Translations under genes and position numbers: made by a program
From: Dermatophagoides farinae
Taxonomy: Eukaryota > Arthropoda > Arachnida > Sarcoptiformes > Pyroglyphidae
Reading direction: 5' to 3'
Assembly (NCBI RefSeq): GCF_024713945.1
Contig: NW_027461517.1
Location: 62,001 to 126,000, forward strand
Length of the DNA stretch: 64,000 nucleotides
The notes under the pieces: model-generated
Databases searched by the model: none
Seen by the model: only the letters and a program-made list of their open reading frames with translations
Told to the model about the DNA's origin: nothing
Part shown: positions 17,870-58,112 of the stretch, piece by piece
How positions within the stretch are numbered: position 1 is the stretch's first letter
How the letters are laid out: the number at the start of each line of letters is the position of its first letter

Positions 17870-18079
17870 ATGGTGGAAAAATTGTACGCGGATGCGCAAT
17901 TGCTCGAGTTTATTCGCCAAACGAACAAGAGTTTGGGGTACAGCGGAAAAGTACGTTTCTTCTGGTATTTTCATATCTAGGTTCGCGTAGAAAAACGAGT
18001 TTTGGACAAGCTCAACAACGTGGCTCACGTCATCGCGCTGTCTGTTTTGACGGATGCAAACGAACAAAGCAAAGAGTAA
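17870..18079 (+). CDS. Small two-exon gene, 59-residue helical protein
   Basis: Exons 17870-17950 and 17981-18079. Exon 1 codes 27 residues starting MVEKLYADAQ and ends in phase 0. The 30-base intron (GTACGT...TCTAG) would add a stop if retained. Exon 2 gives 32 residues including VEKRVLDKLNNVAHVIALSV and ends EQSKE. The joined protein is a short amphipathic helical sequence in two helices; a histone-fold or other small complex subunit is possible but not shown. The donor GAGTAAGT at the stop codon could instead splice to an acceptor at 18115, which would change only the last residues (to KDV). Base use is richer in G+C than the flanks, which supports coding. The minus-strand frame in the same place is treated as a shadow. 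Confidence 0.55.
17951..17980 (+). other. 30-nt spliceosomal intron
   Basis: It begins GTACGT and ends ATCTAG, in phase 0. The length is a multiple of three and the final TAG is an in-frame stop if the intron is kept. Splicing joins codons 27 and 28 of the small gene. Confidence 0.6.
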
Positions 18080-18345
18080 GTAATTATTATTTTACGCAAA
18101 ATAAAATAATTCCAGCGTCTGATCAGAGATCAATCTTTTTTTAGCAAATTAATCAATCGTCAAGCAATAATCAATGCAGCCAAAAATTATTGGTATTGTG
18201 GTTAACTCGATGGTATTTTTTCTTTGTTTTTTTTGTTCCAAAATCCAGATTCTCTTGTAATTTTAATCAGCTTAAAATATTTATTACATAGATTAAGAAA
18301 TCAATAAGTTCTTTAAGAACCGAACGCAACCCAGATCATCAAAAA

Positions 18346-18969
18346 ATGTTTGATATTATTAATAATTCGCAACTAAGTCAAGACTCTCATTACCAAAGAT
18401 TGGTGTCGAATGCAATTCAGGAGGCGTCATTTCTTACTATCCATCCCGAGTGGTTTGAAAAATACCTTACCTATTCCAAATTTAACTACGGTCAATCTAA
18501 AGATAATAGCAAGCTTGCGATGTCGAGGCGCTGCATTGCTTTATCCTCTAAGAATACCGACTGTGAAAAAATCTACAACCTACTTTCTAACTGTTCCACG
18601 GACTCAGAAACTCAGTGCAACAAGTTGATGAACAGCTGCATCAACAATCTAGGATGCAACAACATGTTTATTTCAACTAAAACTTTGAAAAAACGAAAAG
18701 TAGTCTCCAACAACAAAATATCCACGAAGTCGTACATTAAACGGGACTTCATTCCGATGGTTTGTTGCTGCTGCGAAGTCCGAAGTACGCCGCAATGGCG
18801 ATACATTCAAGATTTGCGTTTTTGCAATGCGTGCTACATGAGGCTCAAGCGACGCGCTGACTGCATCATAAACAGTTCAGACAAGTCGGCCACGGCACTC
18901 AATAGATCTACGCATCGTGAAGAAATGATCTTACTGATGGAAAAGATTTTTTTGAAGGAAAAAAGATAA
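18346..18969 (+). CDS. GATA-type zinc-finger protein
   Basis: A 207-residue protein with one GATA-like finger at about 139-170: CCCCEVRSTPQWR...CNACYMRLKRR. The STPxWR and CNACY cores match GATA factors, which bind WGATAR DNA sites. The loop between the cysteine pairs has 16 residues, one fewer than the usual 17, and a basic tail follows the finger as it does in GATA proteins. The first 130 residues are asparagine/serine-rich with a few cysteines and match nothing known. It is likely a nuclear transcription factor; its targets are unknown. Confidence 0.75.
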   Translation: MFDIINNSQLSQDSHYQRLVSNAIQEASFLTIHPEWFEKYLTYSKFNYGQSKDNSKLAMSRRCIALSSKNTDCEKIYNLLSNCSTDSETQCNKLMNSCINNLGCNNMFISTKTLKKRKVVSNNKISTKSYIKRDFIPMVCCCCEVRSTPQWRYIQDLRFCNACYMRLKRRADCIINSSDKSATALNRSTHREEMILLMEKIFLKEKR

Positions 18970-19371
18970 TTCCAAATTTTTTGGTTAATTCAACATCACT
19001 GAAGCTTTAGTGGGTTTTCCAAACTGCTATTCTTTCAGATAAAACAAAAAGATAATTCAACTTAGTTAAAACAAGTAATTCAATTACCAATTTAAAATGA
19101 CTTTTCGATCGATTAGTTTATGAAGGTAATTGCGCAGATTAAGCGACACTCAAATGAAAACTATATTTTATAACATGAAAAAATTTCGTATAATATTTGC
19201 TATTTAGTTCGTCATTTCATGAATGCATTATGCAAACAAACTCAGTAGATACGTCGGGTAGAACGACGAAAAACCGTTTTAAAAAAATTTTAAATTCTTT
19301 GGCAATGTATGCTGTATTTGTTTGCAATAAATAGATCAAAATTGATTTAAAAAAACACGCTTGAAACAAAC
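18970..19371. other. AT-rich intergenic region, no gene seen
   Basis: The 402 bases between two plus-strand genes hold short frames only. No RNA gene or repeat stands out. Confidence 0.4.
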
Positions 19372-20143
19372 ATGTTAAAGTGTAGTAAAATGCTTAGATT
19401 TGCAATAGCAAGTGCTTTTGTGAGCTGTATCTGCAATGGAAAAAGCGTGCCTGATCAGCTGCAGAATAATTCAGGATCGTTGGTTTCGAACCTGAAAAAC
19501 CGCTTAAATATGAAAACGGACAAAAGTAAGTGTAACGATTTAATATTTATGTAGATTTACAAAAAACGAACGAAAGTTCGAAATTAAGAAGCAAACTCGA
19601 GGCTAGAAAGCAACGACGCCAATTAGATAACTCAGTGAATTATTCGGCTAATAATTACGGTTTTCGCCAGCTAGCAAATGACGCCGAAAGTAGTGTTTTC
19701 GAACAAGGAATGGACAAATCAGAGGACAGCGAAAAAGCAAACGACGGTGCGAAGCCTCTCGGTGACAATCTTGAAGAAAGCGCAAAACTGAAGGATAGCG
19801 AACCGCCGCAAGTCACTCTGATGCCCAACGGAGCGACGGAAGCCAACCCCGACAACAATTCAGACATCAATGATGTTACGAACGACAACCCGATAACTAA
19901 CAAACCAATTTATGATTCAAAGCAAAACGCAGGACTGATACGCAGCGAATCCCCAGAAGATAATAAGCTTAACAATGAGGAAAACAGCATTGAAGCCGAA
20001 CAAGATATGCTAGATAATAGTAGTAAGTAATCCACAACTATGGAACGAAGAACTATATCTCTGTTTTAGTTGAAAAAAAGAATTCGCAAGAGAAAAATGC
20101 AGAACTAGATTACGTGGTGAAAACTACGAGTGAAAACACATAA
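19372..20143 (+). CDS. Three-exon acidic secreted protein, unknown
   Basis: Exons 19372-19525, 19555-20022 and 20070-20143 give 231 residues. Both joins are in phase 1 with GTAAGT donors. The N-terminus (MLKCSKMLRFAIASAFVSCI) looks like a signal peptide, with possible cleavage near CNGKS; the Met at residue 7 could be the real start. After a basic patch (KLEARKQRRQLD) the body is very hydrophilic and rich in Asp, Glu, Asn, Ser and Pro, with no predicted fold, and ends KTTSENT. It is not recognised. A secreted, disordered acidic protein could be a matrix or host-facing protein if the organism is a parasite, which is inference. Without splicing the gene falls into two broken frames. Confidence 0.65.
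19526..19554 (+). other. 29-nt intron, first of the acidic secreted gene
   Basis: GTAAGT donor and TGTAG acceptor, phase 1. Removal joins the signal-peptide exon to the downstream frame, which has no ATG of its own at its start. Confidence 0.7.
20023..20069 (+). other. 47-nt intron, second of the acidic secreted gene
   Basis: GTAAGT donor and TTTTAG acceptor, phase 1. It is the longest intron found in the window. If not spliced, the protein ends at once at residue SSK. Confidence 0.5.
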
Positions 20144-20144
20144 T

Positions 20145-20790
20145 TTACTTATTGATTTTATTTAAAACTTTCAAGAATTCCTGATGTGTCTGCACGGGAA
20201 GATTGCTTTCCGTTGCAGCATTTTCGCTGTTGCTTATGAGAGATTGTATTTCTTTGTCGGTCGAATATTGTTGAATGGTATTTGCGAGCGAACATAAAAA
20301 CTCTTGTCCAAAAAAATAAAGCGTACTCAACAATAACACGAGCATGATTGGGTGCTTGATCAACTCAAAAATACTCAATGGTCGTTCTTCATTGTAAAAG
20401 TCAAGTTTTCTACTTAATGGGATTCGACATTTGGGAGCGACTTCTAAATTCGCTTTCTTGTAGCTCAAAATGGGTGATATTATTATTGAGCCGCTCAGTG
20501 AAGAATCAACGATGGCTTCTTCAAATAACAGAAACGGGTGAAGCACTTTAATTGAATAATTTTTTTTTGTATCCCTAGTAAAGCCTTATTACACAACTGA
20601 CTTACACGTGAAACTGCAAATCTTGATCGAGTTGAGCCAAAAGGACTCCTTTATCAGTGATTAATTTAACTTTGAAATCCGAAACGCTCAAAGCGGAAGT
20701 TAGGTATTTAGGTAGATTATTTTTCAAGGCTAAGGAGCAAACAGTGGCTTGAGCCGAAGCTAAAAACGCTAACAAAAAAAACACAATCAT
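20145..20790 (-). CDS. EMC7: ER membrane protein complex subunit 7 (EMC7)
   Basis: Exons 20790-20606 and 20574-20145. An upstream ATG at 20868 is in frame but overlaps the CCA-enzyme gene, and the Met at 20790 starts a clean signal peptide (MIVFFLLAFLASAQATVCSL), so it is preferred. The body is a beta-sandwich region (FKVKLITDKGVLLAQLDQDL). Splicing then continues it as NYSIKVLHPFLLFEEAIVD, the region that is GSYxxxVxSPxYxFDxVRVDI in other EMC7 proteins. A C-terminal single TM follows (IKHPIMLVLLLSTLYFFG), preceded by a SIFELIKHP strip that matches the FLMNPM of animals. The EMC inserts tail-anchored and multi-pass proteins into the ER. The two frames mean nothing singly, which supports the join. 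Confidence 0.75.
20575..20605 (-). other. 31-nt intron in EMC7
   Basis: On the minus strand it begins GTAAGT and ends ACTAG. It splits a valine codon in phase 2. The join restores the EMC7 fold across the two frames. Confidence 0.75.
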
Positions 20791-20851
20791 CCGGACAAAG
20801 TTAGTCGTGAGCTGCGTTTGTGATTCAATTAAATAATAGTAATTTCCACGG

Positions 20852-26595: not shown

Positions 26596-27951
26596 ATGTT
26601 AAACTACTACAGCTTGGTTTTCGCCCCGTTAATATCGGGCTCATTTTTTTTTTGTGGGTTACTTTTAAACACAGGAAAATGGCTCTCAGTAGGTGACTGG
26701 TACTACAATACAAACCACAACATGCTGCTTACTTGTTTTGAATCTTCTATGAAAAATATCACAGAGCTAGAACAAAAAGGTAGAGATTTTTGTTCCATTG
26801 AACATAATAGCTTGTCCGATAAAAAAATAAAGAAGCTTCTTTCTATAAATAGTGACTTTTGCAAGTTCAAGGAAATAGAATTATTTGAAATTCGCAAAAA
26901 CAAAATGTGTTTGCTGGCTTGGGATGGGGATGTCGAGAGTGAATATCTTCGTAAAAAAATCCAATCTATAATTACAAAATCTTTGGGCATTGTGTATCCC
27001 GGCTACGTTGGCTACTTTTTTGTACGTAATTTGCTTGAATCGTTATTAGGCAACGTTTTTATTATTTTACTTAGCTACTACTGCTTTCTATACAATCAAT
27101 CAAAATTTGATGAATCAAACAATGATAAAGCAAGCAAATATAACCAAAAGAGTTTTTTAACCGATAAAAAATATCATTACGATGATTCTCAAAGCATTGG
27201 CAAAGTTACAGGTCAGTCATCTGGAAATGGTTCAAACGTCAACAGGTGGACTTTTTGGCGTAAAATCATTACAACTAAAATATACACCGATTACTTTTAT
27301 GTCCGCAAACTACTGACAAGCAGCACATGTCGTCAAGAATTCATTGAACTACTGAAACTTAAATACGCAAATTTATCGTTTCCGTCGAAATATTTAATTT
27401 ACGTGGTTTTGTTAATGTTGTACAGAATATTTATTGTATATTTCTTAATATCAAACGTAATTTTATCTTCTGCACCGGTAGAAAAATTGCTAATGAAACT
27501 GAACAATTACGTGTCACCATACTCAATTCAGAGGTTTGAAACTTCTGACCACGCTATTCTAGTTACTTTTCTTCTTACGCTTCTACTCAATCTTTTTTTT
27601 TATGAACAGAATTCGATAAAAAATGATTTAAAAGCATGCGTAGACATTGTAACTATTAAAATCAGAGAATTGAGCTATGATAAATTGAAGTTTAAAATTC
27701 TATTTAGCGATGAGTTTAAACTATTTTATAATACCATTGCGCGCTTGATATTGATTTTTTGTACTTTGTTATGTTCGTGGTCACAATTTTTCACAGCTGC
27801 ATTTTATCACACAGGTACGGAAATTACAGTAGGGTTACTGATATTCGTAATATTTATAATAGTTCCTTGTATCTATATTAATCAATATGTTTATAAAAAC
27901 GTGAAACAAGTCTCAGAATCAAAATTGCAGTTGATTCTAATAAATTATTAA
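26596..27951 (+). CDS. Multi-pass membrane protein of unknown function
   Basis: A 451-residue protein with about six hydrophobic segments, at about 5-25, 145-170, 270-293, 315-335, 375-395 and 405-425. A soluble, cysteine-containing loop (residues about 40-130) lies between the first two, and a Lys/Asn/Ser-rich loop of about 60 residues comes next. The first segment could be a signal peptide or anchor. I do not recognise the family; a transporter- or channel-like topology is possible. Its stop codon overlaps the stop of PRP8 by four bases, tail to tail. Confidence 0.55.
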   Translation: MLNYYSLVFAPLISGSFFFCGLLLNTGKWLSVGDWYYNTNHNMLLTCFESSMKNITELEQKGRDFCSIEHNSLSDKKIKKLLSINSDFCKFKEIELFEIRKNKMCLLAWDGDVESEYLRKKIQSIITKSLGIVYPGYVGYFFVRNLLESLLGNVFIILLSYYCFLYNQSKFDESNNDKASKYNQKSFLTDKKYHYDDSQSIGKVTGQSSGNGSNVNRWTFWRKIITTKIYTDYFYVRKLLTSSTCRQEFIELLKLKYANLSFPSKYLIYVVLLMLYRIFIVYFLISNVILSSAPVEKLLMKLNNYVSPYSIQRFETSDHAILVTFLLTLLLNLFFYEQNSIKNDLKACVDIVTIKIRELSYDKLKFKILFSDEFKLFYNTIARLILIFCTLLCSWSQFFTAAFYHTGTEITVGLLIFVIFIIVPCIYINQYVYKNVKQVSESKLQLILINY

Positions 27952-30900
27952 AAATAAGTTGGGTCCAACGGAGACTCAAAGTCATTCTTCAAATTTTCTT
28001 CGGCAGATGCTTCTGTTGCTTCTCCTTTTCCCAAGGCAAAACTTAGGAAGTGCACAGCACGGCTGCGTTTTTCATAAAAATCGGTTGGAGGCATTACAAT
28101 GTATTGTACGTTTTCGATTGCGGAAAAACCAAAAGAGTTCCAGTTGAAGTTCCAAATCTTTGTTTGTGGAACGAAAAATATTCCTTTATTATTCGTGTCT
28201 ACCTCACTTTCGATTTCATTGAAAAAGCCTTGTTCAAATTCTTTTATGGGATTGCCTCTTAAAACTTCACTTATGCCTTTCTCAGACAAAACATATGAGG
28301 CGACCTGCACTCCAGTAGTAAGCAGTTGCAAAATACACAAGCAACAGTTGTTGATGGCCAGTGAGCCAAAATTATCTTTGTTTGGATCAAGCATTTGTCT
28401 GAAAACAAGCAAGTCTTGCTTGTTGGGAAGTGTGTTCCAAGCAGAAGTTCTTATAAATCCAAAACAAGCTTGATCAGATAATAGCGCGTGAGTCGGATCA
28501 CTAGCACACAAAACAACATACTCATTTGTACCGTACTGGGGAGGAATTAAAAACTTGGTGACATTCCAAATTTCGTCACTTGATTTGTGGCCGAACATGT
28601 ATGCTCCTATGCTCGCTGAAAAAGATCCCGCCTTAACAAATTTGCTCAGTAAATTAGAACATATCACTAACTTGCTTGCTCCAGCGACATCACTGCAAGA
28701 CTGAACAATTTTAATATTGGCTGCAATCGCTGGTAATATGCGACTGTCTTGTATTTGGATTCTCCAGCTGGTATTTCCTGAAAACTTCTGAGACTCGTAA
28801 TCAGTCTGCGTCGCCACAATAATGTTTTGACCATGTACATTCGAAGTTTTAAAAGCCTTCACAGACGCATCAGTAGATACACCTTTAGAACTATCAATTT
28901 TTTGGGCTTCTGCGTTGTTAGCCGTGGCGTTCATGTTACTGGCTCCCAAAATAATATCACGTATTTCTGATTGCAACAAACTACTGACCGAGATATTGTT
29001 TCTTATCGCATAGTTATTGAGGACAATATCAGTTAACTCAGACTCAAGCTTTTCCCACAAATCCAATGACAACGTAGGCCAAATATGAGGGGAATTTGGA
29101 TTCATATTTTCATTTAAAAGCTTAATAGTTTCTTCTGTATTTACTAAAGCAGCTCTTAAAATGATCAAAAGTCGAGTAAACGCTGTGTAAGCAGATATTT
29201 CATTCAACCAATCGTCGTAAATATTGTAAATATGTAACTCAGATTTCTCAGCTGCGTCAATTAAAGCTCGAAGCTTGGGTACCTTTATTAACGCAGCGAA
29301 AGGCAAGTCTAACTCGCTATGTTTTATTTGAATGTCAGGATAGTCAAGTAAATTTACTTCAATGGGATCCATTGTGCTCTTTCTAATTAAGATTAGTTCA
29401 CTAGGATGAGCCTCAACCGGCATTGAACGAATTAATAAACTAATTTCTTCAGCAGCCTTCCATTTAGACAACTGAGACAGTCGCTTTTGACCTGCCCAAA
29501 CACTTGAATGTACTATTTTCAAAAACAGCTCACCTGTTGCTGCGTTGACAATAAATATAGCTCCGTTTACTGGTTTAGTCGCTAAATTTCCTTCAAACGT
29601 TCTGTGTATTGAAACTCGGTACACGTTTTTATCGTCAATAAACCATGCTGACTGATTATTCAACATGGCAGAAAGGTTGATTGTAGTGAATTTCATTTGG
29701 TCAGGCATGTTGGAATGCAGTTGTAGACTCTTTTTTATTCTTTCTCTAAGAATGTAAAGAGCAGGATTATTTCGATTCATTTTTTCTAATGCGTCACGTA
29801 AAAACGGTTTAAACCGGTGGAAGTATCTTCCGTACGCGCTGTAGATGTTGTAAGCTAAATCGAAACCAATAACGATTCCGTTTTTACATGGGTATAAAGT
29901 AACGGCATCCGTCGTGTAATCTAGATATTTTATTTTTGAGTGTTTTTCTATGTTGTGAGTATCATAGTTTCCCCAGCAAAGTTGAATGTCTATGAATAAA
30001 TTGCGAGCATCATCTGGATTACTGGCGTACGCGTCTTCTTTGGAAAGCAAACTAGGTTCAGACAACAATACAGGGTTAATAGTTTCTAGTAATATATCTG
30101 CGGCGGAGAAGTTCATTTTATAACTCTTTCGTGGGTGAATACTCATTTTCTTTACAGAAGACAATTTCAAATTCAATGTTTCAAGATCTAATAATTGACA
30201 TAAATCCATTACCAGACTTTCATGGATTTTTTGCCATAAATGTGCCCGGAAGATTTGGACTAAACAAATTTTCAAAATAGGTATTTTACCATGCATAAAT
30301 ATTCCTGTTAAGTCTAGTTGTACTTGAAAACCTATATATACATTAGCTCTGTTAATCGTAGGACTCCACCATAAAGCGAAACGTCTATTTGGAATTTGAT
30401 TTAAACCGCTGCGCTGAGCATTTGTTAATTTTTTGCACTTAAGCACTACTTCAAGCCCTTGATTTCGCTGCCAAAACAAACCTTCCCATGAAGAGAAAAA
30501 AGTTGCTTTGAACAGCGAATGCTCCAAAATACATTCTATTCCGCCCAACGCTTGGATAATATCTGTACGGTAATTGTTCAAATTCCATAGTCTGCCATCG
30601 AAGTATTGAGATGTCCAATAAAATAAAACCCATTTACATGTTTGATATTTCACAAACTCGGCTCGAGCGCGCCAACCTCTATTGTAATACAACAAAAATC
30701 TGTTTTTTTGAAACAAAACATTGATTCTCGGTAACCCTCTATCCCAAATATCATTCACGTCTTCAAGCGATAGTTTACGATTTTCGATTGTACAAAGCTT
30801 TCTTTTTAACAAATATTCATTCCACACAATAACACTGTCATTAAACTCAGTTTCCCACGAATTAATATATCGGTATAAATTAGGAATGACAGAATTTGTT

Positions 30901-33900
30901 TCTATATCTCCTAACCCAGCTCTAAAATGGGTGATTACGGATTCAACTTGTTTGCTATATTTCAAATCAGCCGAAGGAATCAAAACGTGACCCATGGAGA
31001 GCATACCTAAACCACCTAATTCTTTAGGCGCGTAAAAAACAACAGGTGGAAACCTAGAAGGCATTTTGCTGTTAAGTCCCGACTTAATTCTTACTTGAAT
31101 TTTGTTTTCAGATTTAACTATTAAATCCAACATTCGTTCACTAGTCACCGCAGCTTCTCTATAGTACGCAAGCATACTTAATAAAGTAGTATTCCATTTT
31201 GCAGCCACTTTAGTGAATGTAGCATTTGTTGTGCATTGCAGAATATTGCGAATTCTATTTTCAAATTCATGAATGCCTTCTTTAGAAATCGTTAAATATA
31301 AAGTTGCAATTACTTCATTATCGATAGAATGCAAAGGCCAAAATGCTGACGAAGTGGAAATTATACTTGTTGGATCCACATCGATATCAGAACTTAACTT
31401 AAGTATGTCGGATTCTCTACAACGTGGCAAAAAACGTAAATCGAAATTACACATCTTGAGTAAAAGATTCGGATTCTCTGCAGAATAAATAGAGACAAAT
31501 GAATCTGAAGCGCAAATTTCAGCTACATATTTTGGAATACGAGCTGAGATAAAAGTATAAACTACGTTTGCTAGTCGAAAATCTTCGGCTACAAACCTCA
31601 TTCTATAAGATTCAGGCCATATTAACTGGCAAGAGTCATCAAAAAGAAGCTTATTATCTGAAAAAACATCAGATTTTTCTTGAACATATTGACAAACTAT
31701 TTCATTTGAGTCTTTTTCAGAAATATGAATGAGAATAAAAACTTCGTCTAAATAACGTCGATATGCAACAATTGGAAGTTTAATGTCTGGGTCGTTACTA
31801 GTGAAATTCTTGACCTCTTCCTTAGGAAGATTTTCGAGTTTTCCCTTGTGTAATTTATCGGCCATTTCTATACCTAGAATTAGTAGATCACATGCCAAAC
31901 CGTAAAATTGAAGAACGAAAGATGAAAATTGTAAACCGAGCAACATTCCGAAATGGTTTGTGTACGACATATCCTTAAAAGCCAACACTACGTTAAATTT
32001 GCTCGAAATATAATCAGCCAAACTATTGTCCATAATCAATCTGAGTAGTCGATTAAGTAATGTCAGATCAACATATTTAGCCAGCTTACATAATTTAGCT
32101 CTCATCAGCGCTACTCGCGAGCCGTTTTCTGTATCCCAAATCTTTGGAATTCTATTAATTTCGGTAGCAAACTTATATATCATCAAAGGGTTGGGTTCAG
32201 TATCCGATGGTTTAATCCAGTCAGGGAATAACTCAGCGACATCAGCTTCATAACATAAATATTGATCAAGATAGGCGTCGACAATAGATTCAAACGCGTC
32301 GACCTGATAAATTGGCACTATGTCGCTTCCTGTTTCATTAAAGTCAAGAACGATTTCTTTATATGAACGCTGAACTAAAAAATATTTCTTAATTTTCAGT
32401 AACGTTTCGATTGGATTTTCTCTCGCTTTCTCAATCATCTCCAAACAATTTCTTTGAGAAGACGTTAACGAAGAGTTACTTGAATAAACTTCTTGCAATC
32501 TGTCTAGAGCCAAAGTCAATATTTGATTATTATGTTTGTAATTTGAATTTGGAAAAGTAATTTGTTGAAATCCTTGTAACTGTAGCCAATATGCCATTGA
32601 GTTATACATTTTAAGTGCATCCGTAATCGAAATAAAAGGCCCTTGAGCGAGATACGTTTTTTGTCTTTCATGTTCTTCTTTAACATAAAGTCGAGCCAAC
32701 CTACCGAGGTTTTTTTTTGCTACGGCTTTTGGAATTATCACACCTCGCAACATTCTCTTACGCAATATTAACGCGTAGTTAGTCCACCACTGACTCTTCA
32801 AAATAATGTACCTTTCTATTACTTTGGCAATTGGTTCTGGCAAGATAGAAAGGTCGTAATGTTTATTTGCTTTCCAACATCTCCAAGTTTCAGAAAGATG
32901 CTCAAGAATTAGTTTTGATTTTGATTCTCGCAAAGACAGTGGTATTAATTGAGAAATTTCACGTATTACAGCAGCCTTCATTTCCAGATTGCTGTACGCC
33001 TCGATTCTTTGTTTAGAAACTACTTTCGCGGTTTTAACAGTATTTCTTCCTTCAAAAGTTCTCAGCAACAAGTTTCCAAGCCAATCTGTCAATAAAGGCA
33101 AAATCCCACGAATGAAAGTAACCCACGTTTTCCACGATTGAATCCAAAAACCAACACCTGGGCCTTTTTTTAGCGGGGGCGTATTAAATTTGGCATATAC
33201 CAACCTTTTAATGGCTTTACATTTTTTAATTTGGCGTAATACTCTATATTTATATCTGTAAATTGAAGTAATATGTCCCATATGATTTAACGTATATTGA
33301 ATACAATCGGCCAACTGGTACGCATTGATTCGATGTATTCGATATTGAACGTGCGCGTCGCAAAGTATTTTTAATGTTCTTAATAACTCACGGCACAAAT
33401 GAAAACTATTTCCAAATCGACTTTTTTTTCTTTCTTTGGTAGTAAGAGTTTTAGTCGGTCGTATGTTGAAATTATAATCAAGATGTAGAAACTGCAGATT
33501 TCTCTTGTGCAAAAGCAAATTCAGTATTCTATGGCCTTGCTTGCAAACTGATAAAGCAACTTCCAGCCAGTCCATTTCTGTTTTGGAAAAATACGGAGTT
33601 TTTTCCAATAAGCTCAAAAGACTGGCTTTCTTTTTTACCGTCAATCTTCTGTTTTTAATACAGCACTTGGTCCATATTTTAAGCAGTTGCTTGGCGCTTT
33701 TAGAAACTTTGAACTTTTCTGTTTGCGGGATGTGATCTCTGTACCAGCTTTTTGCTATGGAAACTTCATGAGCAGATTTAGTAGGACCAGATAATCGATG
33801 AAATACTGGGCTCGCGACATACAGTTCCAACACATTTGTTAAAACTGACGAATCCAAGTCGATATTTTTTAGAAAAGGGTCGAATCGTGATCTACCAATT

Positions 33901-35174: not shown

Positions 35175-35815
35175 ATGATTTTAAGTTTTTTTCTTATTAG
35201 TTTGCAGATCATTCGTGCCACGGAATATATCATTTTAAGCAAGTATAGCGCCAGATGTAATCAACAACAAACCATACCATCCAATATTTTTACAATAAAC
35301 GTAAGTTATAAATAAAAAATGCTTAGAACTTAGTCAACTTGTTATATGAACCTATTTATGAATGTTTACTAGCATCATTTACAAAAAGTAACGACATTAT
35401 TGAAAATATTACACTTTGTAATGGCAATGCAGCTGAAATTCACGCTGACTCACCGCAACAGTTTTTCTTATTGACAAAATCTTCTTTAATGTGTTTTTTT
35501 AAAAACTCTGCATACACGGTTGAAATAAACGCTCAAGAAGTATGTCAGAAAAAAAAATACACTCGGCTAAATCCAAATGTGACGTCGCTTAGCGAGATAT
35601 TCAATCAGCTGCGAAATGCTGAATCTGAAAAATTAACAGTTAATCTAACGGACCCGTCGGCTATTTCTGCATACGAATGTATTTCCAAAAGTGAAATAAA
35701 AGCTGCAGACGCTTTCTTCATACTAGTTCGTAAAAGAACGAAAAAGTCTTTCAATTCACTGGGTGTCGAAGGCTATCTAGCGCCTTGTGATATAAAAGGT
35801 TCTATTGAAAATTAG
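35175..35815 (+). CDS. Secreted orphan protein, two exons
   Basis: Exons 35175-35300 and 35327-35815 give 204 residues. The intron is 26 bases, phase 0, and the later of two possible AGs (35333) would break the frame, so the first (35326) is used. The N-terminus MILSFFLISLQIIRATEYI looks like a signal peptide. The rest is mixed alpha/beta in appearance with a few cysteines (CLLAS, LCNGNA, MCFF, QEVCQ, ECIS), possibly disulfide-bonded, and no family is recognised. The next gene begins 12 bases after its stop on the same strand. If real, it is an extracellular or endomembrane protein. Confidence 0.6.
35301..35326 (+). other. 26-nt intron, shortest in the window
   Basis: GTAAGT donor, CTTAG acceptor, phase 0. 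A second acceptor-like TTAG lies seven bases further on, but using it breaks the downstream frame. Confidence 0.6.
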
Positions 35816-40000: not shown

Positions 40001-41449
40001 TTTAAATTCTTCTGTAGGTGTTATATTAACAGTTGCTAATGTTAAGAATTCAGAGTTTTGGCTTAGAAAAGCATGTAAATCGATTTTTGACTTTTCATAA
40101 ACATAATATACTGTTTTCCAGTCAGAATTCGCCAGTCCGGAAAATAAACAGTACACGAGCGCGTTATAGTGGTCTGCCCAAATAATTGTAGGACTGGTAT
40201 ATAATATAAGTTTGTAAATAAACGGACTGTAAGTATTTATAAAGCTTAAATTCACATATTTCAACTGATCTACAAGATAGTCAATGAATTTAAAGTTGGA
40301 TTCGTAGGAAAATTCTGGGTCGATTTTCGTCCAATAGTCAAACATTATTAGACAATGCTGCAGAGGGAAATAATTATATTTTTTTGATACCAATGAATCC
40401 AATGCCTTGTAAATATGTGTGGTCATGGTTTCTTCATGCGCTTCTTCTTTCAAGGCTTTGAAAATATTAATTGGATTGTTTGCAAGGTAAAATTTATTGT
40501 CGGCATCTATTAAAATAAAAGACTCAATAATGGTAAGAGTAGTGTTTTCATTGAAAGAGCTGAACAATGTAATCAGTCTCGCGTTGACACTTGAATCGTT
40601 CAATATAAAAAACAAAAGCATAAATTCTAAAAGTTGCTTGAAAATAACATTATTGTGATTCTTGCTGGTCAATGATTCACTGGTGATCAATAAACATTCT
40701 AATATGTTTCGAACCAAGACAATATAATTATCTCTATCGTTTATTTGCGGTAATCTGTACGAAATTATTTCATGGATGTTTTTTAGATATGCTATTTTTT
40801 CTTCAGCTATAATGGAATCATCTGAAAATACCCGTAAAATTTCAAACGAAACAGCTGCTGCCAGATCACCGGAACACGTTGCGATCTTAGTAAGTTTTTT
40901 CATGTAAAAACTGGATCCCCACTTCGTCCTACACATTTCAAAAAATGGCAAAAGCGTTAAATACTCGTTTGAGTTAGGATTTTCAGCACATGTTATTATT
41001 GGTAGCAAAATATTTAAAGCATTACGCTTTAAGTCGCTTACATATTGTATGATGAACTTTTCATAGATAGACAACACAATAACTTTGATATTGCTAGTAG
41101 CGTAATTAAAGAGTAGTTGAAATGGGACTATAGCATTGTTTATTAAATATAAAATCTCGTCTGTCTCGTTATTTGTTGTCAGTAAGTTGATAATAAACTC
41201 TAAAGTAATTTTATGGATTCCTGGAGGTAAATTTGGATCTAACAAACGCCATATTACTGCCCAAAAAGATTGTTTTACTTGATTGTCTATTTCAGAAATG
41301 ACTAGTCCACTCGAAAATAACTATAAATTTATCATTAAAAAAATTACCTTTGTGAATTTCTGAATCGAAATGACCTTGTCAGTCCACTCATCAGATTTAT
41401 TAAATTCTACAATATAGTTTTTAAGCTTATCAATTTTTGATTTAGACAT
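37025..41449 (-). CDS. DOP1: Dopey-family protein (Dop1)
   Basis: Exons 41449-41348 and 41320-37025, 1465 residues. Splicing over a 27-base intron adds an ATG-started exon (MSKSKIDKLKNYIVEFNKSD) to a frame that has no usable ATG near its start. Together residues about 1-190 match the Dopey N-terminal domain: a WTDKVISIQKF helix, then LLDPNLPPGIHKITLEFI, the LFNYATSNIKVIVLSIYEKF repeat and CRTKWGSSFY. Dop1 with Mon2 acts in endosome-to-Golgi traffic and in lipid flippase (Neo1) function. The rest is helical repeats with low similarity, and the C-terminal 150 residues may be the leucine-zipper-like end. It is about 230 residues shorter than yeast Dop1. Confidence 0.75.
41321..41347 (-). other. 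27-nt intron in DOP1
   Basis: On the minus strand it begins GTAATT and ends TTATAG, phase 0. Its length is divisible by three, and its last three bases are an in-frame TAG if it is not spliced. Confidence 0.7.
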
Positions 41450-43223: not shown

Positions 43224-43880
43224 TTATAAGTACTCATATGGTTGGCACTGATCTTTGGGCCTGCCACAACACTCTGGGTGTAGCAGACAGGATATTAAAG
43301 TGAACCGTTCACCAAGTGCGGTTAGATTTTCTTGTTTCGTTTTGCCAATTTCATCTGAGTAGTCGTTCATTGGTTTGATAATGTTGTCTATTATAGTATT
43401 ATCATACTTTTTCTTGTATTCTGCGATAGCTGATCCTATTTTTGCGGAAGCATCTCTAATAGGACCCAGTTTTTCAAAATTAGCTTTTAATTTTTCGTTT
43501 AAATAAGTATCACGATTGTTTACCCATGCGTTGCGATACTCTTCTACCGGTTTCATTTTTTCTAAAAATTTTTTCTCCGTATCATTGATAGCATCTTGTA
43601 GTCTTTGAGTAGTTTCTTCAACAGTCTAAAAAAATGGGAATCTATATAAACTTACATCCTGAATTTGATGGGAACGTGAAATAAGGCTTGGCAAGCCAAG
43701 CAGGTTGGTGTTTTGTGTACTGTTTGGTGTCGAATCTATATTATGTATTAAACCAGTATCGGCCAAATTTAAAACATTAGATTTTTTAACTCTTTCTAAT
43801 ACACTATCTGCCAATTTGAGTATGCCAGTTAGTTCTGTTTTAGCAAACTTAAATAAAAAGAAACAAAATAACTTATGCAT
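43224..43880 (-). CDS. Two-exon orphan, possibly secreted, with a cysteine-rich end
   Basis: Exons 43880-43656 and 43625-43224 give 208 residues. The N-terminus MHKLFCFFLFKFAKTELTGI is short and hydrophobic and may be a signal peptide, though it is weak. The middle is helical, with a charged KKYDNTIIDNIIKPMNDY segment. The last 25 residues have four cysteines: CLLHPECCGRPKDQC. The intron is supported by a canonical GTAAGT and by an in-frame TAG at its end. No family is recognised. Confidence 0.6.
43626..43655 (-). other. 30-nt intron in the convergent orphan gene
   Basis: It begins GTAAGT and ends TTTTAG, phase 0, and its terminal TAG is in frame if it is kept. Splicing joins HQIQD to TVEETTQ. 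Confidence 0.7.
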
Positions 43881-44106: not shown

Positions 44107-46912
44107 ATGAATGCCGTTCAAAAGCCAGGAGTCGGAAGCTTGAGAGAACTAAAATTATGGTTAGCCAATGGAAATCGGTATGATTCATATAAATTCGAGA
44201 ATCGAACCTTACTAGGTGAGGCAATTTTTTTTAACAATATTGAAATAATTGACTATTTATTGACTGTAAGTTTTATACATGAAACTAGTTTAGAAATTCA
44301 AATGTCAAAACGAGCTTGACCAAAACGGTGTGCCGATAGTTGATTTGTTAATATTGAAATCTTTTAGCGAATTTAATTTTAAATTCCGTCAGAAATGGAT
44401 ACGATTGGTAGAATTGGCTATAAAAAAAGGCTCAAAATTGCTAGTCCCTGATAAATATAATAATACAGTTCTGCACGTAGCAGCTGAGAAACATAAAGAA
44501 TTAGATTTCGTTGGAGTTCTTCAGTTCCTAAAAGACTGCAGTAAAAATACTGATTTGTTCAGTGAAGCTTTGTATACAAAATTATTCATTCATTTCTGTC
44601 AAAAAAACGAGGAATTAGTAGAATGTGGCTTATTACTCATTCCTGGATGGGGTTTCAAGACACCTTTACATGATTTGTGTATTAACGGGGCTTACTCTTG
44701 TTTAAAAGTCTGTGGATCATATTTACATAGATTTCGAAACAAGTTTGGCTATTTACCATGCCCGATGGACTCTTACGGGTTGACTCCATTGCATTACGCT
44801 TTTCGAGAAGGACACACAGATATAATACTATTTCTAATTAAGCTCGGGGCAGACATTTTTAGCGTTGATCAATTTTCGCGTAGTCCCATCGCGATGCAAT
44901 CAGATAAGATTTCTAAACCTAATTTAGAAAAAATTTTAAAAGAAATAAGCTTGCATGAAAGTCTCATAGTGAAAAACGAAAAAAAGTTACTGCGGCACAA
45001 GTTCTATTATTTGATAGTCACGTTTGGTATTTGTGTAGGGGTGTATGATTTGTTTTTAAAATACAGGATACTCGGACATAAACTTATTAATGATTATATT
45101 ACAACTTTAGTAATGGTTTTACCGTTGGTTAGTTATTTAGTTTTGTTAACAGGAATATATAGGCAGTTCAAATTCACACTCTTAGCGCCTATTATTCAGC
45201 AGTTTAATTTAGGTTTAGTTTTAAACATTAATTATTTTGAGATAAGTAAAATTAAACGATTTTTGATAGAAAAAGCCAATCTCTATACGAGTTTATTGTA
45301 CCAATCAGCTAATTTTAAAGTCAAATCTAAACACACAAATTCTGAACTAGAATATTGTCCGATAAAGGCTGAATTACGAAAAGAATGGAGTATGTCATAC
45401 AGAATTCTTTCTTCTGTTTTGCAGGAATCAGACGTAAATTATTACGTAATGTATTTGTTCTGGATTTTCAATAATTTGAAATTGATCTCTCCGCAAAAAC
45501 TTGATAATTCTGGTTTGAATAGTATTTTAAGCAAATATAAAAACACTAATGACACCAGAAGTTCAGTGAATATAATTACGTATGGGTCTCACTACTCTGG
45601 ACTGGTGTCAAATTTCGTTGCTCTATCGCCGTCTAGTGTAAGTGTAAGAAGTTCACCTGTATCAACCCCGAGTTATGATTCCACTATGCATAATGATAAT
45701 GACTATCAGTCACAACGCGAAAATTTTTTATTTGAAAACACTAAAAGCCAGTATTCAACGTTAACACAAAATTCAAACATTAATTTTCAGTCCATCGTTG
45801 AAAATAATAAATTAACAGCCGATACCTTGCGACAAGTTTTATTTGATAATAGCACATCCCAAAATCTTAAAAAATCAAAAAAAAACTACAAAATAGTTTT
45901 TGACGCCATTGATGCAAGGCTAGATTCGAAGTTGACGGATGAAAAGTTTGTTAGCACAGACAAAGAAGTTTCTTACGAAACTTCGCAGTCACTTAAAGAG
46001 ATAACAAGAAATCTTGTATTCGAATGTATACAGAACAATAGTCATAAAAACAAGCAATTGTCAGTAGACTTTAGTGAAAATATTTTTATTTCTTCAGATA
46101 TCAGCACAAACGGCTTTAAAGAGCAGCGTGATATTTGTATTGACATAAACGGCAACAACGAGGTCGATATAATTCAAGAAAATGAATATAGAGATGAAGA
46201 ATTTCCGTTCGACGTTATAATTAAGTTGTATACTGCCGATGAAAATATTAACTCAGCAAGGTCGCTTGATAATCCTTTATTGAATTACTTAACGAGCTAC
46301 TTAATCGCAAACAATTTAGTAATAAATTTTTTTTCTGATTGGCGAATCCAATTCGAACGTTGTAGAGAGTTTAATAAAGAAATTCCTCTATTGTTCTCGC
46401 AGACAAACCAAATGCTGAAACTGAAAAATCAAACGTTTTCTATCATGGATGAAAAAGAATCATTGAAAGCTGAAATTATAAATAGAAATAAATTCACAAA
46501 TGAGAAATTTATTGATCGAATCTTTTCTTTAACTAACGTGCTGATAAACAAGAGTAGCAACAACAAACTTGATCTCATTACAAATATGTTGTTGATTGAG
46601 CATTCTTTACAAGCGGATTCTGCGCAGCTAACATCTTGTTTTGCTAGTCTGGACGTCATAAATACAAAAAATTATTTGCAAATATCAAATACAGTTACGA
46701 ACGGAAAGATCAAAGCAGAGATTCTGCAAACTGCAAGAAAAAAGTTTAACAGATTTATTTGGATAATAGTGCCTTTCATGCTGAATTTTATTCCGTTTTT
46801 GGTGTATTTGTTGTTACACGCAACGTTGCTTTATGAAAAGAATAATTTAACGAGGTTTATTGAATATGTAATTTATGAAACGTTATTTTTTTCAATCACA
46901 TTAGTCACATAA
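44107..46912 (+). CDS. Ankyrin-repeat multi-pass membrane protein, unknown
   Basis: Exons 44107-44265 and 44294-46912 give 925 residues. The ATG at 44107 is the first in frame, since a stop precedes. About four ankyrin-like repeats lie in residues 15-270: TLLGEAIFFNNIEIIDYLLT, TVLHVAAEKHKELDF, TPLHDLCINGAYSCL and TPLHYAFREGHTDIILFLIK. Two TM helices follow (FYYLIVTFGICVGVYDLFL; TTLVMVLPLVSYLVLLTGIY), then a long hydrophilic Ser/Asn-rich stretch and a last TM (IWIIVPFMLNFIPFLVYLLL). There is no DHHC motif, so it is not the Akr1 acyltransferase, and I see no ion-channel signature. The family is unknown. Confidence 0.65.
44266..44293 (+). other. 28-nt intron in the ankyrin gene
   Basis: GTAAGT donor, GTTTAG acceptor, phase 0. 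It joins an exon with the first ankyrin repeat to the frame with the rest of the repeats. Confidence 0.75.
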
Positions 46913-46977: not shown

Positions 46978-48675
46978 TCATTTGTCGTGGTTGTGAATAG
47001 ATTTTAAGAATTCAACGAAAATTGGTGATGGAGTTTCAAAACGAGACAAGAATTCAGGGTGATACTGAACACCGATAAAGAATGGGTGATTCTTGAACTC
47101 TACAGCTTCGATGTGATGGTGGAGCTTATCCTTAGCAGGAAAGATGTAGCCAAATTTGGTTAATTTATTTTCATAAGCGTTATTCATCACGTATTTGTGT
47201 CTGTGTCGTTCATTGATGAGCTTTTGTTTGTTGTAGCAGCGGTATATGAGAGAATCTTCGTCGTCGATGCGAATTGAGTTCAGACCGAGCCTCATCGTAC
47301 CGTTGAAAGCGGAATTTTCGTTTTTCGCTAAAAAGCAAATAACTCTTTTATCGTCCATAGCGCCGAATTCTTCGCTTCCACATTGAGGGTCGATGAAAGT
47401 CTGAGCCGCTTCAATGCAAACTAACTGCATTCCAAGACAAATTCCGAAAAACGGAGTCTTGGATTCTCGAGCGTATTTAACTGCAGCAATCATACCATTG
47501 GTGCCTCTGTAGCCAAAGCCTCCAGGAAGCAAGATGGCACTACAAGACTTTAGCTTTCTCCATTCATTTTCATATTCGCTTGAGTTGAGCGAAGGGTCAA
47601 GAAGTTCGGAGTTGATTTCAACCAACTCGTAGAAAACGTCGGTGGCAATGCCTGCGTATTCCATAGCTTTCAACACACTTGTATAAGTGCTGTTGGAGCC
47701 TCCATACTTGATGACAAACGCAATTTTGTGTCTGTCGGCTGAGGCAGCATTTTTCGCATGGTAGTCTGTTGCTTTGGTGATCATGTATTTAAGTTTGATT
47801 TGAGCAGATTTGTTAGGAGAGAGTGACTCGAGAGGAATGTTCAGGGCCTTTAAAATTTTATTAGTTAGGTCTTGCTGCTGAAGAGTGCTAATAATTTTGT
47901 AAAAGTGTTTTACGTTGTGTTGACTAATAATGCATTCTGGTGAGAGTCCTGAGTAGATAGCGATTTTCTGTTTAGCACGGTCGTTCAGAACGGTATTGCA
48001 TCTCGCAATAATAAAGTCAGGAAATAAACCTGCTTGTTTTAGTAAGCTTACTGAATGTTGAGCGCATTTAGTCTTTTGTTCTTCTTCGATTTGTGGGACA
48101 AAAGCTACGTGGCAGACAAGTATTTTGTCGTGGGTATATTTGGTTTTGAACTGTCTGATAGCTTCCAAAAACAAAGCAGACTCAATGTCTCCGACAGTTC
48201 CTCCGATTTCAATTAGACACACATCAGGCTTTTGGTTTGACCCGGTGAGTCTCATTGAAGCAGTGTTAACGATGTGCTCGATAATGCAGTCAGTCACATG
48301 GGGAATGAGTTGGACGGTTTTGCCTTTGTAATGCCCGCAACGCTCAGCAGCAAAGACTTTACTGTAAATAACACCTGTAGTGATACTGTGATGTTTTGTC
48401 AAATTTTTGTTTAAGGCTCGTTCGTAGTTTCCTAAATCGAGGTCACATTCGTGTCCGTCATCAAGAACAAATACTTCTCCGTGCTCATGAGGAGACATCG
48501 TTCCAGCATCGATATTCAGATACGGATCAACCTTGATAATTGTGACATTTAGGTTGGCAGCACTTAGCAACATGCCGAGGACGGAAATAAAAGTGCCTTT
48601 GCCAAGTCCTGAAATAGACCCCTAAACAGGATGTGGGAAGTTTTAACTTACCCCTGTTGTGAATATGTAATTCAT
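46978..48675 (-). CDS. CTPS: CTP synthase
   Basis: Exons 48675-48652 and 48621-46978 give 555 residues. The first exon codes only MNYIFTTG, and splicing restores the family's N-terminus: TGGSISGLGKG, where others have TGGVISGIGKG. The synthetase domain has DPYLNIDAGTMSPHEHGE and DLDLGNYE. The glutaminase domain has GICLGMQL with the nucleophile Cys, and GVQYHPEF with the catalytic His and Glu. It converts UTP to CTP with glutamine. The extra first exon of eight codons explains why the frame otherwise starts inside the P-loop. It is a soluble enzyme of the cytosol. Confidence 0.95.
48622..48651 (-). other. 30-nt intron in CTP synthase
   Basis: It begins GTAAGT and ends GTTTAG, phase 0, with an in-frame TAA at its third codon. 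It lies after codon 8, between the two halves of the P-loop motif TGG-SISG, so the join is proved by a conserved motif. Confidence 0.9.
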
Positions 48676-53543: not shown

Positions 53544-53556
53544 TACTTTTTTTCTT

Positions 53557-55548: not shown

Positions 55549-56413
55549 AACATTGTTTACTACAAAATTATTTAATGCTTCTATTTGGACGGTACAAGTA
55601 TTTACAATGAACTTATTTTCGAGTACTATTTGATAGTAAAAAAGAATCAAGGCTTATGTATCATCGATATATTTGTTTTTATTGACCTCTATAAAACATG
55701 TTGTTCTATAAAAATGCAAAAAAGTTTTATCGATCTCTGAACAGTTAATCGAACAGATATTCCACAAAAAAATATAATTCGTATCGAAGCAGTCTACGTA
55801 TCTAAAAATTATTATTAGCAATATACGTTTGTTTTACAATACTAATGTTTACTAAGAGCAACATTACCGTTGTCGTATTTACTTCTTCGCTGTTGCCGCC
55901 AAATAATATACTATACATTTAAAAAATTTAAAGCCGGTCTTACTACCATTGATTTCTAATCATGACGATTTGTTTTTTAAGCCGGCATATTTGATACACA
56001 TAAGGAAAAATTTTTTTTTGCAATTCTGCAAATTTATCACTAACTGTTAAGCTTAGGTTTTTATATCCACGTTCTTGATAGAATAAATAAACGTAATTTT
56101 AAGAAGAGTTAGATATTCATATATGAAAATACGAAAAACGTTTTACTGATTGTTAATACAGTAATCATAATTTGACGGTCAAAAGCTTTAAAATAAGATC
56201 TACAATTAAAAAGCTATATTTTAATCGACTGATCTAAAATTAAACTCTTTCTCATTGCCGTTCAAAAAATAATAAATCTAAAACTACACACTAATTCAAT
56301 ATTTAAATTTTATTAGCCTTATTGGAAGTGAGTGATTTACACTTTCGTCGCCAAGTCGGTCAAAATAAATATTTATATTGCATAAATAAAAAAGTCTTTA
56401 CTACTAAATAACG
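55549..56413. other. 865-base AT-rich spacer, largest gap, no gene supported
   Basis: No frame with coding character is visible on either strand. AAGCCGG occurs twice, at about 55932 and 55980, once followed by T and once by C, on either side of a 40-base core. That is an oddity in otherwise AT-rich DNA. I compared the region by eye with U1, U2, U4, U5 and U6 core sequences and with tRNA T-arm motifs and saw none. An unknown RNA gene is possible but not shown. Confidence 0.4.
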
Positions 56414-57109
56414 ATGTCTGAAGTCAAGTCAAACGAATCAAATATTCAGATCGACCAAATGGTCGCGTTTATCATCAATGAAGCCAAGGACAAAGTTAGT
56501 GAAATAGAGTTGAAGGCTTATGAAGACTACAATATGGAGAAATTAAAAACCATACAAACTAAACGAGCTGAGATTGTCAGAAATATAGAGAATCGGTTCA
56601 ACGAACACAAAAAAAATATTATGATTAAAACATCTGCTCTTAAATTGAAGATGAGATTGCAGCTTTTGACGCAGCGTGCTTTAAAAGTAGAAAAAATACA
56701 AGAAATGTGTCTGAAGCGAGTGAACGAGGAAATAACAAACTTAGATTTTTATACGAAGTTTTGTAGCGACTTAATTGTCGAAGCAGTAATAAAGCTGCAT
56801 AGCTCGGATGTTTTTGTGCAGTGCTTGAGGCGTGACTATGCTGTATGCAAAAAGGCTTGTAGCCAGGCTGAACACAATATTTCGAAGCTATTTGCCGAGC
56901 ATGGATTGAGTAGCGCTACAATAAACATTGAATTAACAAAAGACCACTTGGACGATGAATATGACGAGCCGTTGGAAGAAGTAGTTGGAGGAGTTATTGT
57001 ATCTACAAAAGATCAAATAAAACGTTTAGATAACACGATTAAAACTAGACTAGACCTAATATTTAACTCTTTTCTGTGTGAATTGCGTAATGTTTTGTTT
57101 GAAGATTAG
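56414..57109 (+). CDS. VMA4: V-type proton ATPase subunit E
   Basis: A 231-residue protein, normal for the family. The N-terminus (QIDQMVAFIINEAKDKVSE) is the typical E-subunit start, then come a long basic-acidic coiled coil to about residue 110 and a folded C-terminal part ending LRNVLFED. Subunit E pairs with G to form the stators that hold the V1 head against rotation. It shows that the cell has an acidified endomembrane or vacuole system. One gene only is visible. Confidence 0.85.
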   Translation: MSEVKSNESNIQIDQMVAFIINEAKDKVSEIELKAYEDYNMEKLKTIQTKRAEIVRNIENRFNEHKKNIMIKTSALKLKMRLQLLTQRALKVEKIQEMCLKRVNEEITNLDFYTKFCSDLIVEAVIKLHSSDVFVQCLRRDYAVCKKACSQAEHNISKLFAEHGLSSATINIELTKDHLDDEYDEPLEEVVGGVIVSTKDQIKRLDNTIKTRLDLIFNSFLCELRNVLFED

Positions 57110-57183
57110 AAAATATTTAAGCATCATGTAAATTACATAAATTAAGTGATTCTATGCTATATATGAAGAGTTTACGTGGTATA

Positions 57184-58112
57184 TTAATAAATAATCGCTT
57201 CGTGTCCAGCGAAGAACTCATTATTTTCTGGAAGCGGCTCATCCTTGTTGGGGTCAAAACCTGGCATAGAGCGGATTAAATCGCACATTACGTTTCGTAC
57301 TCTGTGTTTGAATTCATCTACTGTCTCACTTGGGTAAGGTTTCATGAGATCACCGAACTTGGCGTATGCAGTACCTGGATACATCCAAATAGCGCCGACT
57401 GGCCAAAGTTTTTGAGAGTTGAACGAAACCATTGGAAGTACTTGCCAATTGTTTTCAATTGCAAACCTGAAAAAACCGCTTTTGAACGGTTGGAGACGTG
57501 AGGCGGACCCTCGCGTGCCTTCTGGGAACAGTAAAACTGGCATACTGTATTTCTCATCAGTGTCTTTGATTAAGTTCATCGATTTCATAAGTTCAGCTTT
57601 GTCGATAGTTGGTTGTTTTTTAGTTTTAGTTGGAATAGGTATATCTTTGGACAATCTTAATATTCGGCCGTAGAAAGGAATATTCAAAAGGCTTTTTTTA
57701 AACACCCACTTCGCCTCAATCGTTCCGAGCGCAGCTGAAACCAACCATGGATCGGCTTGAGTAAGATGGTTGCAAACAATCAGTACTTTTCTTTGCTTCT
57801 TGATGTCTTTTGGAGGATTGTTTAATGTTTTGACTGACCAAAACGGATTCAACTTAACAGATATCAACACCGTCCAAAATCGAAGCATGCGTCCCATCCA
57901 GTAGTATTTATGTCGAGGGTTAAACAAATAGATGGGCCACATGGTCAACAAGTACAAAATCTAAAAAATGTAAAAAATAAATGTCAACGTACCTGAAAAA
58001 TAAATGCGACGAGCAAACCGTTCATTAAGATCAGAGTTATATAGTATGAAACCAATTTCTGCTTGAAAGTAGCACGCAACTTTGCTTTTTTCTGTATCTC
58101 ACATTTATCCAT
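57184..58112 (-). CDS. 1-acyl-sn-glycerol-3-phosphate acyltransferase family protein
   Basis: Exons 58112-57993 and 57960-57184 give 298 residues. The first exon supplies MDKCEIQKKAKLRATFKQK and a hydrophobic helix (YYITLILMNGLLVAFIFQ), so the spliced form has an N-terminal membrane anchor. The acyltransferase motifs are clear: NHLTQAD (NHX4D motif, here about 105), an FYGRILR block, then LFPEGTRG and a VLPMVSFNS block. It adds an acyl group to lysophosphatidate or a related lysolipid at the ER. The exact acceptor cannot be told; the LCLAT1/AGPAT3-5 group is closest in feel. Confidence 0.8.
57961..57992 (-). other. 32-nt intron in the acyltransferase gene
   Basis: It begins GTACGT and ends TTTTAG, phase 0. 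It links the N-terminal anchor exon to the catalytic exon. Confidence 0.8.

Follow-up and report, generated by a model that had tools for sequence, protein, structure and literature searches.

Very short introns in a compact, probably gregarine-like apicomplexan genome sequenced together with a mite

This study concerns the window, a stretch of 64,000 nucleotides (C14:62001-126000, where C numbers denote contigs of a 22-contig assembly and L numbers denote sampled loci), and the eleven introns that a first-pass annotation had placed in it. The introns look real, very short and of the spliceosomal type, splicing itself being inferred from the DNA. Most probably, at a rough probability of 0.85, the window comes from a compact, gregarine-like apicomplexan nuclear genome that was sequenced together with a mite host, probably Dermatophagoides, and that bears real introns of 26-35 nucleotides (nt). 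The ordinary part of this finding is the intron length, and the interesting part is the tiny apicomplexan genome with its diverged Prp8 and its unrecognised small nuclear RNAs (snRNAs).

Short introns with uniform signals

All eleven proposed intervals run from GT to TAG exactly where they had been placed, six on the forward and five on the reverse strand, with the three donors that had been named for them: GTAAGT in eight introns, GTACGT in two and GTAATT in one. The claim that ten of the eleven measure 26-32 nt is likewise correct, the remaining one being an outlier of 47 nt (Table 1). Twelve gene models, which hold these eleven introns as well as 12341-12368 and 17413-17441, read without interruption from ATG to stop once the introns are removed, and each of the twelve contains in-frame stops if they are retained. 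None of them requires a reassigned stop codon, which agrees with the standard code assumed at first. The original list stands in full as to its eleven entries and was incomplete, since the intron at 17413-17441 was missed, as were probably that at 12341-12368 and possibly that at 6272-6299; removing the latter two candidates results in plausible C-termini. The intron at 17413-17441 was hidden behind an apparent stop of the dynamin open reading frame (ORF), because the donor GTAAGT contains TAA and mimics a stop codon.

Domain continuity over the junction was observed in three genes, clearly in CTP synthase and modestly in dynamin and the endoplasmic reticulum (ER)-lumen (KDEL) receptor. Splicing raised the CTP synthase match to the CTP_synth_N profile by 16 bits (327.1 to 343.1) and moved its profile start from 8 to 2, in agreement with the earlier statement that the P-loop proves this intron. 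Removal of 17413-17441 raised the dynamin GED match from 47.8 to 52.6 bits and extended it from profile positions 4-75 to 4-90 of 92, and the KDEL receptor match at 36047 (PF00810) rose from 36.4 to 39.3 bits as its profile start shifted from 33 to 10. The same kind of proof had been claimed for EMC7 and Dopey genes and was not confirmed there, because the Pfam match to EMC7 reached only 18.0 bits at a cut-off of 26.6 and the 1431-amino-acid (aa) exon of the supposed Dopey gene gave no Pfam match at E<=1. Splicing brought no bit gain in the acyltransferase gene at 57961 (64.5 to 64.0), whose domain lies in exon 2, and no Pfam bit gain at 6272-6299.

It could be argued that most of the eleven are chance GT...AG joins of adjacent frames, sequencing indels or small pseudogene breaks, an explanation that the controls render highly improbable. 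A gene finder working on two strands with a flat intron-length prior of 15-250 nt was trained on the long frames of the window and of L016-L029, compact-contig sequence of about 204 kb. With GT-AG as its sole signal, it made 24 calls and recovered six of the eleven introns, a total that, being no higher than the 22-24 calls made with each of ten decoy dinucleotide pairs, would by itself fit chance. Therefore, the length class and the donor are informative here and the raw number is not: twelve of the GT-AG calls lay at 24-35 nt, against only 1-7 for the decoys, and 11 of these twelve carried a GT[AG][AC][GT]T donor that had not been asked for. The highest decoy, CT-AC with seven calls at 24-35 nt, can meet the same introns on the opposite strand, because it is the reverse complement of the GT-AG ends. 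The window holds 15 matches to the motif GTA[AC]GT-N17-24-TAG, compared with 4.23 +/- 2.01 (maximum 9) in 60 order-2 Markov resamples, and nine of the 15 are reported introns. This excess, together with the CTP synthase and dynamin domains that continue over their junctions, speaks against chance joins. Three motif matches were not taken as introns, namely 27022, which lies inside a 457-aa ORF, 36550, just past the end of an ORF, and 12255, where the frame ends ahead of the motif.

With learned donor and acceptor weights and the flat length prior, the gene finder predicted 37 introns in 133 gene models and recovered all eleven. Twelve of the 37 predictions, which had no consensus donor or measured at least 80 nt, were removed as probable noise before counting; they are noise-like or at least 127 nt long, and a few longer introns are possible, since one of them, 242 nt long, starts with GTAAGT. 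The 25 retained introns, all with a consensus donor and shorter than 80 nt, comprise 13 from the window and 12 from seven of 14 further 10-kb loci of C14-C21. Their median length is 29 nt, and 23 of them fall at 26-35 nt (the outliers measure 47 and 72 nt); 20 begin with GTAAGT and 24 end in TAG.

The intron interior of about 20 nt consists of 46% T and 33% A (25 introns), and positions -9 to -4, which lead into TAG, are 60% T (26 introns). As to a branch-point motif, no 4- or 5-mer exceeded the 95% maximum of shuffles in 26 introns, the uncorrected p values of ATTT and ATTTA being 0.046 and 0.030, respectively. An A occupies the sixth base from the 3' end in three of 25 introns and is never found in more than 14 of 25 at positions -4 to -19, that highest count being at the 11th base from the 3' end, and the distances from the last A to the acceptor are spread from 1 to 10 (26 introns). 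Within genes, the first 34% of the gene model contains 20 of the 25 introns. Such a 5' bias is the pattern expected after the loss of 3' introns, and it agrees with a history in which other introns were lost over a long time and those that remained became shorter.

These introns are most probably major-type spliceosomal introns that have shrunk to about 26-35 nt, and they would be removed through intron definition acting on a minimal intron. The near-invariant GTAAGT donor, being fully complementary to the U1 5' end, would pair with U1. The branch point may be an unfixed A within the AT-rich interior of about 20 nt, and a short T-rich stretch would lead into the TAG acceptor.

A second nuclear genome in the assembly

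The window belongs to a second, compact nuclear genome within an arthropod-like assembly. The 62.4 Mb of the assembly are divided among C1-C10 (about 58.8 Mb), C11-C13 (645, 157 and 90 kb), C14-C21 (483 to 250 kb) and C22 (14,266 bases). Prp8 is matched twice, on C7 and on C14. Six MCM genes are located on C1, C2, C6, C8 and C10 and another six on C14, C15, C16 and C18, while C14-C21 carry eight Cpn60/TCP1 genes, that of C20 being split in two pieces, and C1-C10 the others. For the proteasome, 14 genes were counted on C1-C10 and seven on C14-C21, with three more on C11 and a single one on C13, neighbouring pieces having been grouped as one gene in the MCM and proteasome counts. Of the matches to the LSm domain, C14-C21 have six, C11 has four and C12 has one, all the rest being on C1-C10. 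The duplicate Prp8, MCM, Cpn60/TCP1, proteasome and LSm sets therefore indicate that two nuclear genomes are present. The description of the window's gene set as a nuclear one also holds.

The chromosome ends are also of two kinds. TTAGG arrays were found at the starts of C4 and C6 among the ten large contigs (C3 and C7 are masked there). Among C14-C20, of which C18 is masked at its start, C14 and C16 begin with CCCTAAA units. A stretch of C11 (L013:1-1030) is a degenerate telomere-like array that mixes CCTAA, CCTAAA and CCCTAAA units.

The compact genome amounts to 2,701,745 bases if it comprises C14-C21 and to 3,593,788 bases in 11 contigs if it comprises C11-C21; its completeness was spot-checked with four gene families. 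Its coding fraction is 0.82, and its GC content is 32-38% in the window and in the internal loci of C15-C21. Possibly C11-C13 are part of it, for a total of 3.59 Mb. This assignment is favoured because the 14 proteasome genes of C1-C10 already make up a full eukaryotic set and because no MCM or Cpn60/TCP1 match on C11-C13 repeats one of C14-C21. In codon usage, the distances of C12 (0.365) and C13 (0.290) fall inside the range of the C14-C21 loci (0.24-0.83), and that of C11 (0.705) lies at their edge, just under the lowest C1-C10 locus (0.796). In tetranucleotides, C12 is nearer to C14-C21 (0.44) than to C1-C10 (0.12) and C13 is near neither; the C11 stretch, of which a third is sparse or telomere array, resembles C1-C10 (0.36) more than C14-C21 (0.13). 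Both the codon and the tetranucleotide signals of C11 weigh against its inclusion.

Lineage of the compact genome

The pyruvate kinase encoded at L029:255-1754 (C21) is identical at 497 of 500 positions to a UniRef protein filed under Dermatophagoides pteronyssinus. Gregarina species, at 53-55% identity, are its nearest organism-named relatives among the other matches listed, followed by Eimeria and Vitrella. In a separate comparison with three Gregarina kinases it is 52-54% identical to them, and these three in turn are 55-66% identical to the kinases of Eimeria, Vitrella, Besnoitia, Plasmodium and Lankesteria. In a tree computed under the C20 mixture model from 42 of the 120 listed matches, the kinase groups with Gregarina with a Shimodaira-Hasegawa-like approximate likelihood ratio test (SH-aLRT) value of 97, apart from the coccidia, the haemosporidia, Vitrella, Platyproteum and the dinoflagellate rows. 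These data demonstrate a gregarine affinity of one gene, pyruvate kinase.

Other markers point in the apicomplexan direction. AP2 domains over the cut-off were identified on C19, C16 and C14, with one below the cut-off on C11 and none on C1-C10. The ribosomal protein eS7 of the window ranks four PDB chains ahead of the next (Table 1), three of which we take to be from Toxoplasma and Plasmodium ribosomes; against a large protein set, eS7 gave two matches only. Trees of Prp8 were computed from 40 (LG+G4) and 23 (C20 mixture) of its 120 listed matches, and in the latter the query joins 11 apicomplexans (SH-aLRT 99). As a lineage placement, the Prp8 tree was set aside for its overlong branch and was retained mainly to reject a fungal origin. 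The host species and the parasitic life of the source are probable; for the host, the 497/500 kinase match and the telomeres suggest Dermatophagoides.

Prp8 and the snRNAs

Prp8 is among the slowest-evolving proteins known. The first-pass annotation had called the Prp8 of the window normal, which is true of its seven domains. The protein is complete, but its sequence is abnormal: eight other Prp8 proteins each share only 43.5-46.8% identity with it, while seven of these eight share 61.4-81.5% with the eighth, that of a bird. It is changed at 175 of 701 positions that are invariant in 23 other eukaryotes, with some of these changes in each of the eight stretches examined. Pyruvate kinase, the one gene compared in this way, is much less out of line.

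The compact contigs C11-C21 hold this Prp8 (C14) and 11 LSm-domain matches. On the same contigs, the Rfam models found neither U6 (48 of 7910 candidates scored) nor U2 (46 of 3769 candidates scored), the matches over the cut-off being U6 on C3 and C10 and U2 on C6. A U6 core pattern with at most one mismatch gave 14 matches, zero of them on C11-C22, and a longer U6 core with at most three mismatches was found in only two copies, on C3 and C10. At the gathering thresholds, Rfam recognised only two tRNAs in 140 kb of C14-C21, nothing in the window and nothing in 30 kb of C11-C13. Missing assembly, masked stretches and real divergence are possible reasons why U2 and U6 went unrecognised. The diverged Prp8, the unrecognised snRNAs and the small genome are the surprising parts of this study.

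Weighing the interpretation

Several results weigh against a gregarine-like genome with real short introns. The junctions are predictions from the DNA sequence, the sequence used for training the gene finder is also the sequence scanned, the introns examined showed no conserved branch-point motif, and neither U2 nor U6 is recognised on the compact contigs. Concerning the lineage, three longer proteins outscore Gregarina for pyruvate kinase (606-624 vs 588 bits); they fall with the dinoflagellates in the tree. A second mite-filed kinase (P0132) groups with the C21 kinase in a join flagged as long-branch. The AP2 profile also matches Deinobacterium, one of 14 control genomes, and the single alveolin match is weak (34.2 bits) and stems from a profile that also matches Caulobacter. 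Actin, tried against the PDB for placement, was discarded because two chains scored almost alike (544.7 and 543.6 bits) and gave no separation of lineages. The Prp8 branch is extreme, with 2.73 (LG+G4) and 7.06 (C20 mixture) changes per column; the LG+G4 tree places the query outside all others, and the approximately unbiased test does not reject a clade of apicomplexans without the query (p-AU 0.295).

Rather than a gregarine, the source might be another arthropod parasite among the alveolates or the wider stramenopile-alveolate-rhizarian (SAR) group, such as a perkinsid, a dinoflagellate or a rhizarian relative. Prp8, too diverged for placement, leaves room for such a source, and the eS7 ranking cannot separate these lineages, because to our knowledge few of them have PDB ribosomes. 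We nevertheless regard this as improbable in view of pyruvate kinase, which sides with Gregarina and not with Vitrella, Platyproteum or the dinoflagellate rows. A mite parasite related to fungi, microsporidian or otherwise, would fit the short introns, the tiny genome and the diverged Prp8, as the small size, the coding fraction and the accelerated proteins all resemble microsporidia, and visual inspection of the frame 18292-18969 of the window, which has no Pfam match, shows a GATA-like zinc finger (C-X2-C ... C-N-A-C). This origin is less likely still, since placing Prp8 with two fungi is rejected (p-AU 0.00018) and the grouping of pyruvate kinase with Gregarina, the AP2 domains and the CCCTAAA telomere units all contradict it. 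Algal nucleomorphs and ciliates are textbook cases of introns this short and had been invoked for comparison on that ground, but a source of either kind is exceedingly unlikely. TTAGG telomeres of the arthropod type mark the companion nucleus, which also has MCM and proteasome genes of its own, and the compact set has its own six MCM, eight Cpn60/TCP1 and proteasome genes; in telomeres and gene sets the pair does not resemble a nucleomorph and its host, no search aimed at plastid genes having been made. Against both, the twelve gene models need no reassigned stop. A gregarine-like apicomplexan thus remains our preferred source.

Comparison with known short-intron genomes

The comparison first drawn with ciliates and nucleomorphs missed the nearest precedent, the apicomplexan Porospora cf. 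gigantea, a gregarine of lobsters (PMC9250747). That report gives a median intron of 28 [27-30] bp and a class of about 25-30 bp, with a mode of 28, that makes up 71-72% of introns; its authors compare the short class with the 20-bp introns of Babesia microti (PMC9250747). Since such introns are already published, the introns described here extend a known class, with a median of 29 nt against 28 in Porospora, and both genomes are compact, gene-dense and apicomplexan. However, the A that lies 6 bp ahead of the acceptor is strongly conserved in Porospora, whereas the compact genome has an A at the sixth base in 3/25 introns, and the Porospora genome measures 8.8-9.0 Mb at 54% GC, against 2.7-3.6 Mb at 32-38% GC here (PMC9250747). 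Babesia microti is also an apicomplexan with a very short intron class, but its 20-bp introns are shorter than the 26-35 nt observed here, and it belongs to another apicomplexan lineage (PMC9250747).

Unlike the compact genome, Gregarina niphandrodes has a median intron of 95 [56-145] bp, with a mode of 37, in a genome of 13.9 Mb (PMC9250747). The butterfly neogregarine Ophryocystis elektroscirrha is, as here, a small-genome apicomplexan infecting invertebrates, but its approximately 8.9 Mb, called there the second smallest reported, contrast with at most 3.6 Mb here as assembled (PMC10210345). The gregarine genomes compared in these two sources span 8.8-13.9 Mb (PMC9250747, PMC10210345). Gregarine 18S has been met in the mite Caparinia (PMC6321676), and gregarine contamination in 12 arthropod transcriptome assemblies has been published (PMC5244568). 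We found no published gregarine or other apicomplexan genome from mites or dust mites in the open-access literature searched. Two further papers, PMC10603697 and PMC8051059, yielded nothing on the matters discussed here when searched by term.

The present data extend the short intron class of one marine gregarine to a mite-associated relative, and the length class may therefore be old or recurrent in gregarines. Of greater value is the setting, in which an apicomplexan genome of very small size, spread over few contigs, accompanies that of an arthropod and has a Prp8 far more diverged than its pyruvate kinase. This genome could show which parts of the spliceosome change as introns shrink. The 497/500 kinase match further suggests that public dust-mite protein sets contain proteins of the organism that bears the compact genome. 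A more far-reaching picture, which we put forward tentatively and consider unlikely in its entirety, would be a dust-mite gregarine with a nuclear genome of only about 2.7-3.6 Mb, nearly all introns at 26-35 nt and a rebuilt spliceosome, in which Prp8 has fallen to about 45% identity and U2 and U6, even the near-universal core of the latter, have diverged past standard models and a 3-mismatch scan.

Features of the window and minor observations

The introns and the other features located in the window are collected in Table 1.

Table 1. Introns, candidate introns and other features of the window (positions counted from its first nucleotide).
Feature	Position	Strand	Description
Possible further intron	6272..6299	+	28 nt; end of MUS81/EME1-like ORF; motif match, not predicted by the gene finder
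Ribosomal protein eS7	9159..9728	+	112-121 bits to the four best PDB chains, 91 to the next
Probable further intron	12341..12368	-	28 nt; near 3' end of MCM gene; predicted by the gene finder, frame open on splicing
Intron missed at first	17413..17441	+	29 nt; GTAAGT donor; dynamin ORF
Intron	17951..17980	+	30 nt; GTACGT...TAG; within 59-aa ORF
Intron	19526..19554	+	29 nt; GTAAGT...TAG
Intron	20023..20069	+	47 nt, outlying in length; GTAAGT...TAG; follows 19526..19554 within one gene
Intron	20575..20605	-	31 nt; possible EMC7-like membrane protein, Pfam EMC7 below cut-off
Prp8	27951..34973	-	2341 aa in one frame; seven Pfam domains of Prp8; sequence strongly diverged
Intron	35301..35326	+	26 nt
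Intron	36047..36074	+	28 nt; ER-lumen (KDEL) receptor gene, PF00810
Intron	41321..41347	-	27 nt; GTAATT...TAG; follows short first exon of 1465-aa model; Dopey not confirmed by Pfam
Intron	43626..43655	-	30 nt
Intron	44266..44293	+	28 nt; gene carrying ankyrin repeats
Intron	48622..48651	-	30 nt; CTP synthase gene, N-terminal P-loop segment
Intron	57961..57992	-	32 nt; GTACGT...TAG; acyltransferase gene
Sm/LSm domain match	58331..58546 (C14:120331-120546)	-	61.9 bits; in apparent intergenic gap

Two of the sampled loci each consist of one open frame throughout. That of C13 (L015:1-10000) spans 3332 aa and has no Pfam match, and that of C19 (L021:1-10000), also of 3332 aa, appears by eye to be enoyl-reductase-like, as in a giant fatty-acid or polyketide synthase.

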